From NCBI RefSeq assembly GCF_002494345.1, contig NZ_NXNI01000001.1, positions 3,844,001-3,908,000 of the forward strand: 64,000 nucleotides of DNA. Direction: 5' to 3'. The notes under the pieces were generated by a model that saw nothing but the letters and a program-made list of their open reading frames with translations, had not been told where the DNA came from and did not search any database. The position numbers and the translations under genes are program-made. Of the stretch, positions 11,418 to 62,681 are shown piece after piece; the stretch's first letter is position 1; the number at the start of each line of letters is the position of its first letter. This DNA is from Natrinema ejinorense (GTDB taxonomy: Archaea; Halobacteriota; Halobacteria; Halobacteriales; Natrialbaceae).

Positions 11418-11503
11418 CTGTAGTAGCCACTGCGAGTCAATGCACACCTGATCGTACGACAGCGGTGCGAGCAGTGTGTCAATCGGTTCGGTGACGACTA
11501 AAG
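11418..11503 (+). repeat. Short inverted-repeat element, diverged copy (B)
   Basis: It aligns without gaps over 86 bp to the intact copy at 58785-58870; by eye about 71 of 86 positions agree. The core TGCACACCTGATCG is identical. The terminal inverted repeats have decayed (CTGTAGTAGCCACTG at the left, degraded at the right), so this is an older copy. It lies between two genes without touching either. Confidence 0.75.
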
Positions 11504-52687: not shown

Positions 52688-52767
52688 CGAGAGGAGCCAC
52701 TGGAACGATTGACTCCGCAACGCTGTCGTGCGAGTCGGTGTGCAGTGACGTTCAGTTGCTACGAGAC
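52688..52767 (-). repeat. Short inverted-repeat element, shortened copy (C)
   Basis: In reverse orientation it matches the intact copy at 58785-58870: GGAGCCACTGGAACGATTGA, then CAACGCTGTCGTGCGA and CAGTTGCTAC near the end, with about 9 bp missing in the left half. Its right end lies over the 3' end of the 5-formyl-THF ligase gene, whose TAG stop at 52759-52761 is inside the repeat's terminal arm. Confidence 0.72.
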
Positions 52768-58716: not shown

Positions 58717-59094
58717 ACGTAGCTCGTGGTTGGCCGGTGAGTAAACTCGAGTCCTTACCCTTGCAACGGGCGGGGTCGATCGACCTATAGTAGCAACTGA
58801 CAGTCATTGCACACCTGATCGCACGACAGCGTTGCGATCAGTGTGTAAATCGTTTCAGTTGCTACTATAGTTCGGACCAAACCGGCAGGTCGTATCGGTT
58901 CATCGGAGAGCGATGATCGGCCAAGCGCTCGATCGGCCTGAGAGAGACACACGACGAGATACGACTCGTATGGATATTCGTGACGCGAATTCTATCGACG
59001 TGCAACGTCGGTGGGCTGGGGAACACGTCTCGTTCAGCTATTCGATGAGTTCAGTGACGCTATCGACAGGTGAATAATACCCGTTCTTTTCGAC
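58717..59094. other. Intergenic region with intact repeat element and a possible gene remnant
   Basis: It holds the halocyanin promoter, the intact 86-bp inverted-repeat element (58785-58870), and a 35-residue plus-strand frame starting MDIRDANSIDVQ at 58970-59077, which may be a GNAT-like remnant. AT content rises here and marks the start of the accessory region. Confidence 0.55.
58785..58870 (+). repeat. Short inverted-repeat element, intact copy (A)
   Basis: 86 bp with perfect 16-bp terminal inverted repeats, CTATAGTAGCAACTGA at 58785-58800 and TCAGTTGCTACTATAG at 58855-58870. The inner arms TGATCGCA and TGCGATCA also pair, so the whole unit can fold into one long hairpin. This is the architecture of a non-autonomous transposon (MITE). 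No clear target duplication is seen. Three diverged or truncated relatives are in the window. Confidence 0.8.
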
Positions 59095-59565
59095 TCACGT
59101 CGTATGCCAGGATTCTGCTTCTGCTACAGATATTTCTTCGTTCTCGATCCCACGAATAAGGATCCCGAGCGACCCGGTACACGGAACATCGACCGTTTCT
59201 GCTGCCGATCGAGCTTCCATGTCATCCGTCGCTAGTGCCCATCCGTGATCTCGTGCGTAGGCGAGAGCGTGCCGTTCGCCGTAGTCTAATTTCTGGATTT
59301 GCTGGATCGATCGGTCCTGAACGCTCCCTACCGGAATCGTCTCCGTCTGGCCGCTCCCAGTCAAATATCGGAGCGCCTCCTCGAGATAGGGACGACCCTG
59401 TTTACTCCCCCGTTCGAGTTCCTCTTTCACAGCAGCTACTGACAGCGGGTGAGCGAACGTAGCGGTGAGGAATCCGACAGAATCCGATGCAGCGTAGTTC
59501 GACAGGACGGTCGTATCTAACACAACTCCCTCGATCGAATCACTACTGTCGGAGTCGTCCGTCAT
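59095..59565 (-). CDS. PIN-domain (DUF3368-like) RNase toxin
   Basis: A 156-residue PIN protein. The active-site acids are in VVLDTTVLSNYAAS (Asp16 approx.), VKEELERG, DYGERHALAYARDHGWAL (Glu) and LATDDMEARS. It ends CTGSLGILIRGIENEEISVA, the usual C-terminus of DUF3368 toxins. It is coupled to the upstream small UPF0175-type gene by ATGA overlap, the standard layout of toxin-antitoxin pairs. RNA cleavage is the known activity of relatives. Confidence 0.85.
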   Translation of the reverse strand: MTDDSDSSDSIEGVVLDTTVLSNYAASDSVGFLTATFAHPLSVAAVKEELERGSKQGRPYLEEALRYLTGSGQTETIPVGSVQDRSIQQIQKLDYGERHALAYARDHGWALATDDMEARSAAETVDVPCTGSLGILIRGIENEEISVAEAESWHTT

Positions 59566-59780
59566 TCGATTCGGCGGGCAACATCGATTTCGTCGTCGAT
59601 GTCTTGTCGAGTCGCTGGCCCATGTCGGGGAACGACATCGGCCTCCAGCAAGATGTCACGAAATTCCCCCGGATCTATTCCCAACCGGTCTGCACCTTCC
59701 GTAACGGTGAGTTCGCCGAGAACGTGCAACCCAACGACAGTAGCGACCTCTTCGTCGTCGAAGGTCTGAGAGGGGGACAT
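59562..59780 (-). CDS. UPF0175-type antitoxin
   Basis: A 72-residue small protein: VATVVGLHVLGELTVTEGAD, then IDPGEFRDILLEADVVPRHG, a ribbon/helix-like arrangement typical of UPF0175 proteins that neutralise DUF3368-like PIN toxins. ATG at 59780 is chosen over one four codons upstream. Its stop overlaps the toxin start. It may repress the operon's promoter. Confidence 0.8.
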   Translation of the reverse strand: MSPSQTFDDEEVATVVGLHVLGELTVTEGADRLGIDPGEFRDILLEADVVPRHGPATRQDIDDEIDVARRIE

Positions 59781-59873
59781 CGTATTCTTCACTAGATGGA
59801 GTACGACTATAACAGTTGTTCTGCCAGATCAGGGACTTCCCTCGAGGGAGGACGCCGTCCCGTTTCCCAGGAT

Positions 59874-59925
59874 CTGACGGCCGTCGTGCGAGCGGGTGTG
59901 CAGTGACGTTCAGTCGCCACTCGAG
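59874..59925 (-). repeat. Short inverted-repeat element, half copy (D)
   Basis: CCGTCGTGCGAGCGGGTGTG, CAGTGACGTTCAGTCGCC match the right half of the reversed repeat family; the left half is absent. The TGA stop of the adjacent minus-strand regulator gene (59910-59912) is inside the repeat. Boundaries are approximate. Confidence 0.6.
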
Positions 59926-61116: not shown

Positions 61117-61813
61117 GGCGGTGTTCAGATAAGGATGAAGGATGAGGCGGTTCGTTTTCTGAGTGATCTATGCCCGAAAACGACCGCCTCAACGGTTGTT
61201 TAGACGAGATCAACTTAGAGTTTGTTGAACGAGAAGCGACACCGCGATTGCTGATGAAGCTCAGTATTCAACTGCACCTCGCTGGACTTTCGCTTTCGAA
61301 TACTGTCTCTGTTCTTGAGGTATTCGGTGTCAAACGCGCTCGGTCTACTGTTCACAATTGGGTACACAAGGCCGATCTACAGCCCGAATCTGGCCGGTGT
61401 CCGGATCACGTTGCGGTTGACGAGACCGTGATCCGACTGAACGATGAGCAGTATTGGCTGTACGCCGCAATCGATCCAGAGACAAACGAATTGCTCCATA
61501 CAAAGCTTGAACCGACAACAACGAAGGTTCTCGCTCATTCGTTTCTTACGGAACTATCCGAGAAACACAACGTCTCTGACGCCGTGTTTCTCGTTGATGG
61601 GTCGCACTCGTTACAAGATGCATGTCAGCGCCACGGCTTCGATTTCAGATACGAAAAGCATGGAAATCGAAATGCTGTTGAACGTGTCTTTAGAGAGATA
61701 AAACGACGAACACTCTGCTTCTCAAACTGCTTCAGCAACGCCGAAGCAGAAACTGCCGACGACTGGCTCAGATCGTTCAGCTTCGCATGGAATCAGCTTA
61801 TCTGAACACTACC
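61117..61813 (+). mobile_element. IS6-family insertion sequence, apparently intact
   Basis: A 697-bp element bounded by 17-bp inverted ends, GGCGGTGTTCAGATAAG at 61117-61133 and CTTATCTGAACACTACC at 61797-61813 (15 of 17 match). It is flanked by the 8-bp duplication GTTGAAAT and carries one complete transposase gene. Size and ends match haloarchaeal ISH14/ISH15-like elements. It landed between the left end and transposase gene of an IS5-type element. Confidence 0.92.
61170..61805 (+). CDS. IS6-family transposase
   Basis: A 211-residue DDE transposase. The N-terminus has an HTH (FGVKRARSTVHNWVHKADLQ), and the catalytic acids are in DHVAVDETVIRLNDEQYWLY (Asp), DAVFLVDGSHSLQDACQ (Asp) and GNRNAVERVFREIKRRT (Glu). 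All three are present and the length is normal, so it should be active. Start ATG 61170 lies 36 bp inside the element's left end. Confidence 0.93.
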   Translation: MPENDRLNGCLDEINLEFVEREATPRLLMKLSIQLHLAGLSLSNTVSVLEVFGVKRARSTVHNWVHKADLQPESGRCPDHVAVDETVIRLNDEQYWLYAAIDPETNELLHTKLEPTTTKVLAHSFLTELSEKHNVSDAVFLVDGSHSLQDACQRHGFDFRYEKHGNRNAVERVFREIKRRTLCFSNCFSNAEAETADDWLRSFSFAWNQLI

Positions 61814-61821: not shown

Positions 61822-62681
61822 CCTCACAGGGTTACAGGCTCGACAGCTAGTGTAAGTGAATGCAGGCCCTCCCAAAGTCACGATTGCTCCAGTTCGTTGA
61901 GCAGGCAGTCCACTTGGCCCGACGAACTGTCGCTCACTACTCCTCGAAGTTCTCGAAACGACGCTACACACTCCACCAGCACATCGTTCTACTCTGTCTC
62001 AAAGTTCGGAAGAACACGACGTATCGGGCGCTTCTCGACGAACTCATCGAGATGCCCCGCATTCGGAGAGCCATCAACTTGGACGAACTCCCGTCACCCT
62101 CAACGTTGTGCAAAGCGTTCAACCGACTCGATATGGCTGTCTGGCGTGTTCTGCTTAACCTCTCGGTCACGCTTCTCCCGACTAACGGTATCGTTGGGAT
62201 CGACGCTTCAGGGTTTGACCGGAGTCACGCCTCGAAACACTACACGAAGCGAACGAAGCTAACGATTCAGCAGTTGAAGGTGACTCTTCTGGTGGACACG
62301 AGGTCGAACGCGATTATCGACGTACACGTAACGACGACACGAAAGCACGACTCAAAGATTGCACCGTCGCTCATCAAGCGGAATACCGGGGACGTAGCGG
62401 TTCTCCTTGGCGACAAGGGATACGACGACCAGAAGGTTCGCGCAGTAGCCTGTGAGACCGGTGTTCGACCGCTCATCAAGCACCGCGAGTTTTCGTCGCT
62501 CCACAAGGCGTGGAATGCTCGACTGGATGCTGATCTCTATGGTCAGCGTAGTCAGAACGAGACTGTGAACTCCCGACTCAAACGCAAGTACGGTGCGTTC
62601 GTCCGGTCACGGCACTGGTGGAAACAGTTTCGAGAACTCGCTATCACCTGCGTTGTTCACAATATCGACCGATCATTCTAA
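61822..62681 (+). mobile_element. IS5-family element remainder, interrupted at left, right end not found
   Basis: This segment continues the IS5-type left end after the IS6 insertion (CCTCACAGGG...) and includes its transposase gene. A right terminal repeat matching GGATTTCAACAGAGCC is not seen in the 1.3 kb downstream, so the element seems cut at or just after the transposase stop. It is probably immobile on its own. Confidence 0.7.
61860..62681 (+). CDS. IS5-family (ISH-type) transposase
   Basis: A 273-residue DDE transposase. Catalytic residues are in NGIVGIDASGFDRSHASKHY (Asp), VAVLLGDKGYDDQKVRAVA (Asp) and YGQRSQNETVNSRLKRKYGA (Glu of the Y-2-R-3-E-6-K region). The frame is complete, but the element has lost its right end and its left end is separated by an IS6. 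The start is ATG 61860. Related haloarchaeal ISH elements are common on plasmids. Confidence 0.9.
   Translation: MQALPKSRLLQFVEQAVHLARRTVAHYSSKFSKRRYTLHQHIVLLCLKVRKNTTYRALLDELIEMPRIRRAINLDELPSPSTLCKAFNRLDMAVWRVLLNLSVTLLPTNGIVGIDASGFDRSHASKHYTKRTKLTIQQLKVTLLVDTRSNAIIDVHVTTTRKHDSKIAPSLIKRNTGDVAVLLGDKGYDDQKVRAVACETGVRPLIKHREFSSLHKAWNARLDADLYGQRSQNETVNSRLKRKYGAFVRSRHWWKQFRELAITCVVHNIDRSF

Follow-up and report, generated by a model that had tools for sequence, protein, structure and literature searches.

Features of the locus

The window (the whole 64-kb stretch of Natrinema ejinorense DNA that was analysed) contains an intact 86-bp repeat, CTATAGTAGCAACTGA...TCAGTTGCTACTATAG. Its inverted ends match perfectly over 16 bp and are separated on either side by six unpaired bases from an inner hairpin. 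The predicted RNA fold of this repeat has a minimum free energy of −48.3 kcal/mol. The inverted ends and paired inner arms had been described in the first-pass annotation of the sequence and were confirmed at exactly 58785–58870. The three diverged or shortened copies listed there, at 11418, 52688 and 59874, were all found by blastn, the last of them at 59880–59921. With a covariance model of the family, the intact copy scored 113.9 bits. The half-copy was not recovered by this model and has blastn as its sole support. The components of the intact repeat and the other copies are listed in Table 1.

Table 1. Components of the intact repeat and further copies of the family in the window
Feature	Position	Strand	Evidence
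Whole footprint: host C + TA + 80-bp element + TA + host G	58785..58870	+	Sequence; borders via empty sites at other copies
80-bp mobile unit, TAGTAGCAACTGA...TCAGTTGCTACTA	58788..58867	+	Inferred from occupied/empty comparison at L015, L018, L005
Duplicated target TA, left copy	58786..58787	.	Empty sites C-TA-G of other family copies
Duplicated target TA, right copy	58868..58869	.	Empty sites C-TA-G of other family copies
Left terminal inverted repeat, TAGTAGCAACTGA	58788..58800	+	Perfect inverted match to 58855–58867; likeness to IS630 ends
Right terminal inverted repeat	58855..58867	-	Perfect inverted match to 58788–58800
Left unpaired subterminal stretch, within conserved AAGTCATTGCACAC	58801..58806	+	96% mean column conservation; matches IS630 downstream end AGTAATTGCTCAC
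Right unpaired subterminal stretch, + strand AATCGT	58849..58854	+	97.5% mean column conservation
Inner hairpin arms and loop	58807..58848	+	Predicted fold; pair counts across copies
Diverged full-length copy, intergenic	11418..11503	+	blastn 82.6% identity, E 1.6e-20; covariance model 74.5 bits
Diverged, internally shortened copy, intergenic	52688..52763	-	blastn 52692–52762, 77.9%, E 1.8e-13; covariance model 29.2 bits, E 2.7e-4
42-bp half-copy, left half only	59880..59921	-	blastn 81%, E 2e-6; no covariance-model match

A stretch of about 1.1 kb that includes the intact copy (approximately 58778–59896) was absent from a second genome of the same species (G149), in which 58777 is joined to 59897. 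The absent stretch holds two small adjoining ORFs on the minus strand, 59095–59565 and 59562–59792, which by eye resemble a PIN-type toxin and its antitoxin; neither gave a Pfam match at E ≤ 0.001. Plasmid pNMAG02 of Natrialba magadii (L437) carries a copy immediately downstream of a gene pair annotated as AbrB/MazE-family and PIN-domain. Further along the window are two adjoining transposase genes unrelated to the repeat, one at 61170–61805 with a weak, below cut-off match to DDE_Tnp_IS240 and one at 61860–62681 matching DDE_Tnp_1 (PF01609).

Copy number and distribution

The covariance model was built from 54 copies and applied at a threshold of E ≤ 0.01, with matches counted on both strands. 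In the genome from which the window was taken (4.48 Mb, three contigs), 139 matches were obtained, representing at least 76 distinct places among the matches listed. G149 gave 114 matches at 54 or more distinct places. The terminal 15-mer alone, with two mismatches allowed, matched 107 times in the own genome compared with two for the reversed control. Eight of the own-genome copies were one identical sequence, the consensus, and shared the top covariance-model score. The four copies seen in the window were therefore real, but calling them a four-member family understated its size; the expectation of many copies genome-wide was borne out, and confinement to these four places, named beforehand as evidence against an inserted repeat, was contradicted.

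Most copies were intergenic according to a simple codon-usage gene call. Their flanks were mutually unrelated rather than conserved, conserved flanks being the other observation that had been named as pointing away from insertion. The repeat is thus dispersed and multicopy in unrelated surroundings, as is usual for miniature inverted-repeat transposable elements (MITEs).

The comparison with other Halobacteria that had been recommended was also carried out. The repeat was present, patchily, in 80 of 149 related genomes, mostly within its own family and in some other families of the order. It was carried by 47 haloarchaeal plasmid records from several genera including Haloarcula, Natrialba and Halomicrobium, megaplasmids among them. 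A search of annotated phage records gave no match to the repeat. When viral contigs were searched for the 15-mer end alone, the interior not being required, at least 120 stretches were found among the matches listed.

Insertion footprints and target choice

Occupied sites were compared with their empty counterparts in relatives, including the genome of the same species, as had been proposed in the first-pass annotation. At L015, the empty sequence GGGCG-CTAG-TCGCC corresponded to GGGCG-C-TA-[80 bp]-TA-G-TCGC in the occupied site. Clean footprints with duplication of TA were also found at L018 (empty site GACC-TA-CGAG) and L005 (CTC-TAG-TGG), and the empty sites of L017 and L030 showed the same footprint save for one substitution in the TA (CA and GA, respectively). 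Comparison of L024, L016, L007, L009 and L028 with relatives revealed no clean footprint because the flanks had diverged. The empty site of the window copy itself is unreadable, since G149 lacks the whole 1.1-kb stretch around it, and the borders of this copy are taken from the other copies. Because the empty sites of those copies show these borders, the mobile unit is 80 bp rather than 86, the flanking TA is the duplicated target, and the outer C and G are host target sequence.

The context of 30 own-genome copies was CTAG in 24, CTAT or CTAC in five and a mutated GTAG in one. Among the 1184 TA contexts of the window just 22 are CTAG, giving a binomial P of 1.5e-36. The repeat therefore inserts at TA, preferably CTAG, with a 2-bp duplication of the TA, the pattern of an IS630-type element. 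At L018, the insertion splits an OsmC-like ORF (Pfam PF02566, E 4.5e-9; L018 1410–2093) that is intact in G149. The 80-bp unit has inverted ends and is too short to contain a transposase gene. With its many copies, unrelated flanks and empty sites with TA duplication, the earlier suggestion of a MITE-like, non-autonomous transposon is upheld.

Abundant, intergenic palindromes are also typical of REP/BIME-like or PATE-like repeats moved by a Y1 transposase (IS200/IS605, RAYT), and the GTAG motif at the hairpin base would fit such an origin. IS605-type elements and PATEs, however, are without terminal inverted repeats and without target duplication (PMC3119063), whereas the repeat described here has both true terminal inverted repeats and the 2-bp TA duplication, which makes a Y1-moved palindrome scarcely credible.

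Resemblance to IS630 ends and the missing transposase

IS630-family (PF13358) elements of about 1055–1059 bp were found in related genomes with the ends C-TA-TAGTA(G/A)NNRTTAGAA, sharing the TA target and the TAGTAG start with the repeat. The remaining end sequence was compared over 24 positions, leaving out the shared first seven bases (TATAGTA), allowing one gap and using 1000 shuffles as the null. For the left end of the repeat against the IS630 downstream end, the mean number of matching positions was 14.3 of 24 (best single element 18 of 24), where the highest of the shuffles reached 12.7; the downstream end at L093, in a Natrinema relative, ranked among the best. For the right end the values were 12.3 against the downstream end (P 0.007) and 10.8 against the upstream end (P 0.04). 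By this comparison the ends of the repeat resemble those of IS630 elements, being similar rather than identical, with a significant match on the left and a moderate one on the right. IS630 elements as a rule duplicate TA (PMC2170065), and IS630 itself prefers a CTAG target according to the same source, which cites Tenzen and Ohtsubo 1991. Based on the TA duplication, the CTAG preference and the IS630-like ends, the 80-bp repeat is very probably a non-autonomous MITE of the IS630 (IS630-Tc1-mariner) type.

In the mechanism postulated here, the 80-bp unit, itself devoid of genes, would carry two transposase-recognition ends, each consisting of TAGTAGCMACTGA and the subterminal ATTGCACAC/TTTACACAC stretch. 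These ends would be cut by a transposase of the IS630 family acting in trans, now or in the recent past, and the excised unit would be reinserted at a TA, favouring CTAG, with duplication of the TA.

The own genome contained no intact IS630 transposase, only an 80-aa PF13358 remnant, and G149 gave no PF13358 match even at E ≤ 1. IS630-type ends were sought in both of these conspecific genomes and none were found. The first-pass annotation had considered mobilization by a resident transposase, which is thus unsupported in the own genome. The repeat-rich genomes G001, G005 and G009 had no PF13358 match above the family cut-off, and G023 was rich in PF13358 with few copies of the repeat. An autonomous partner was also sought with an end-pair pattern that excluded the MITE interior. 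The matches, in 90 relatives and among the public-genome matches listed, were degraded or composite copies of the repeat and no transposon; a full-length element with exact TAGTAGCMACTGA ends was found in neither set, nor was the full transposon with exact CTATAGTAGCAACTGA ends that had been proposed as a check. IS630-family elements with partly matching ends do exist in relatives, the exact ends being present in none of those found. The PF01609 (DDE_Tnp_1) elements of the own genome were considered as partners and rejected, their ends being unlike those of the repeat.

Near-identical copies are therefore present in the own genome despite the lack of an intact IS630 transposase there. Such recent spread, with eight identical consensus copies, could also be explained if the MITE were moved by a DDE transposase of another family, such as one domesticated by the host or that of a resident element, and 16 DDE_Tnp_1 matches are resident. 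This is improbable, as the resident elements examined have other ends, where the ends are visible, and both the TA/CTAG targeting and the end sequence point to IS630. An IS630 transposase is thus the probable mover, one that would have been lost from these strains or only transiently present; it was lost recently, or is gained and lost along with plasmids, or belongs to a type that escaped detection. With an intact IS630 transposase in neither conspecific genome, the copies in both look stranded.

Covariation between the arms

Across 53 distinct copies, 13 of the 34 pairs were changed on both sides, a number reached in none of 500 shuffles. Together with the very stable predicted fold and the mostly intergenic location, these paired substitutions could indicate a structured RNA inherited vertically, or a cis-regulatory hairpin under selection for RNA pairing, in either case multicopy by chance. 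With pairing in RNA, G-U would be tolerated on one of the strands. The mismatched cells, counted by pair-column, were A-C in 22 and G-T in 19, and after removal of one fixed G-T pair (49 cells) the totals were 38 G-T and 39 A-C; as pair-columns are not independent events, this parity is an indication rather than proof. With G-T mismatches as frequent as A-C ones and no strand-specific tolerance of G-U, the covariation fits DNA-level correction between the arms better than selection on RNA. Furthermore, the unpaired subterminal stretches were conserved as strongly as the stems, as expected if they are ends bound by a protein, and an Rfam search of the window gave no match. A regulatory RNA stem, the other alternative raised in the first-pass annotation, is accordingly disfavoured: the flanks are unconserved, orthologous sites are empty with a clean TA footprint, one copy splits the OsmC-like ORF and G-U is no more frequent than A-C. 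Overall, a structured RNA is very unlikely.

A possible source of the arm correction was seen at one locus. The own-genome copy L021 (1501–1586) and its ortholog in G149 (L173) have the same flanks and share an atypical right-hand CTAC context, and the interior is reversed between them. Unflipped, the interiors differ by 34 mismatches; flipped, by four, with a diagnostic T-to-G at position 23 common to both. Recombination or template switching between the arms is suggested by this single pair, and either would also yield paired substitutions without selection on RNA. From the paired substitutions and this one in-place inversion, the two arms of the IS630-type MITE would appear to be held to one sequence through events at the DNA level, whether arm recombination or template switching. 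A more speculative extension, for which the same inversion is the direct support, is that the repeat is a self-correcting, invertible palindrome. The arms would be continually equalized and the unit would flip in place through recombination or template switching, and the ends would stay usable for the next IS630-type transposase, letting the MITE persist and burst without a resident one. We consider this possible but rather doubtful.

Relation to known repeats

The nearest analogues of the repeat appear to be RUP and the Correia/NEMIS elements. RUP of Streptococcus pneumoniae is 107 bp long, occurs in about 108 copies, has ends like those of IS630-Spn1 and inserts at TA (PMC2229807). The similarity lies in a non-coding unit of about 0.1 kb with around a hundred copies, IS630-like inverted ends and insertion at TA. 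Unlike RUP, the present repeat is haloarchaeal, has perfect 16-bp outer inverted repeats and is a near-complete palindrome, and no intact IS630 was present in the two genomes closely inspected (own and G149). Like the repeat, the Correia/NEMIS elements of Neisseria are small, palindromic and intergenic, have inverted ends and duplicate TA (PMC2229807); their hosts are unrelated. According to the same review, bacterial repeat ends that resemble insertion sequence ends are known for RUP only (PMC2229807).

The IS630-family elements (PF13358) of Natrinema and its relatives share with the repeat the C-TA-TAGTA(G/A) ends, the pattern of TA duplication and a subterminal ATTGCTCAC. Unlike the repeat they encode a transposase, and their terminal inverted repeat continues as NNRTTAGAA rather than CMACTGAA.

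Among haloarchaeal repeats, the HqIRS MITEs of Haloquadratum, compared here by description only, share few terminal bases with their transposon, and HqIRS39 appears to be mobile though every copy of its presumed transposase is broken (PMC3119063). The latter is a parallel for apparent mobility without an intact transposase; IS630 is not mentioned in that paper. The small mobile repeat (SMR) of Haloquadratum, which makes no duplication and whose inverted ends have no relation to transposons, was rejected as a match, as the present repeat duplicates TA and has IS630-like ends. In the literature searched, which took in few of the subscription journals, no description of the repeat by its end sequence and no IS630-type family among haloarchaeal MITEs were found. 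We regard the repeat as a new family, possibly described before, of a known kind of mobile DNA; it has moved and left TA footprints, presumably through an IS630-type transposase.

The haloarchaea thereby gain a large family of MITEs for which a transposase family is likely, TA footprints are precise and presence or absence differs between strains. Many hairpins left unannotated in halophile genomes are explained by this family, which has disrupted one gene or more. Covariation without a G-U bias is a caution that a repeated hairpin may show compensatory changes without being an RNA. With identical copies and no resident transposase, the persistence of orphan MITEs becomes directly testable.

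Other palindromic repeats

Two other palindromic units were encountered during the analysis. In several genomes one of them, of about 85 bp (TGATACGG...CCGTATGA), was nested within the inverted end of the repeat, at its TGA. It was seen at L066 (1511–1595), L084, L045, L072 and L188, occurs alone too, and is possibly another MITE with a TGA duplication. The other, a dispersed repeat of about 73 bp (GCACTGCAGGGTCGGCGGG...CCCGCCGGATTCGACCCTGCAG), was found at L030 (1426–1498) and had around a dozen matches in G149, including L168, L177, L187 and L190–L195.
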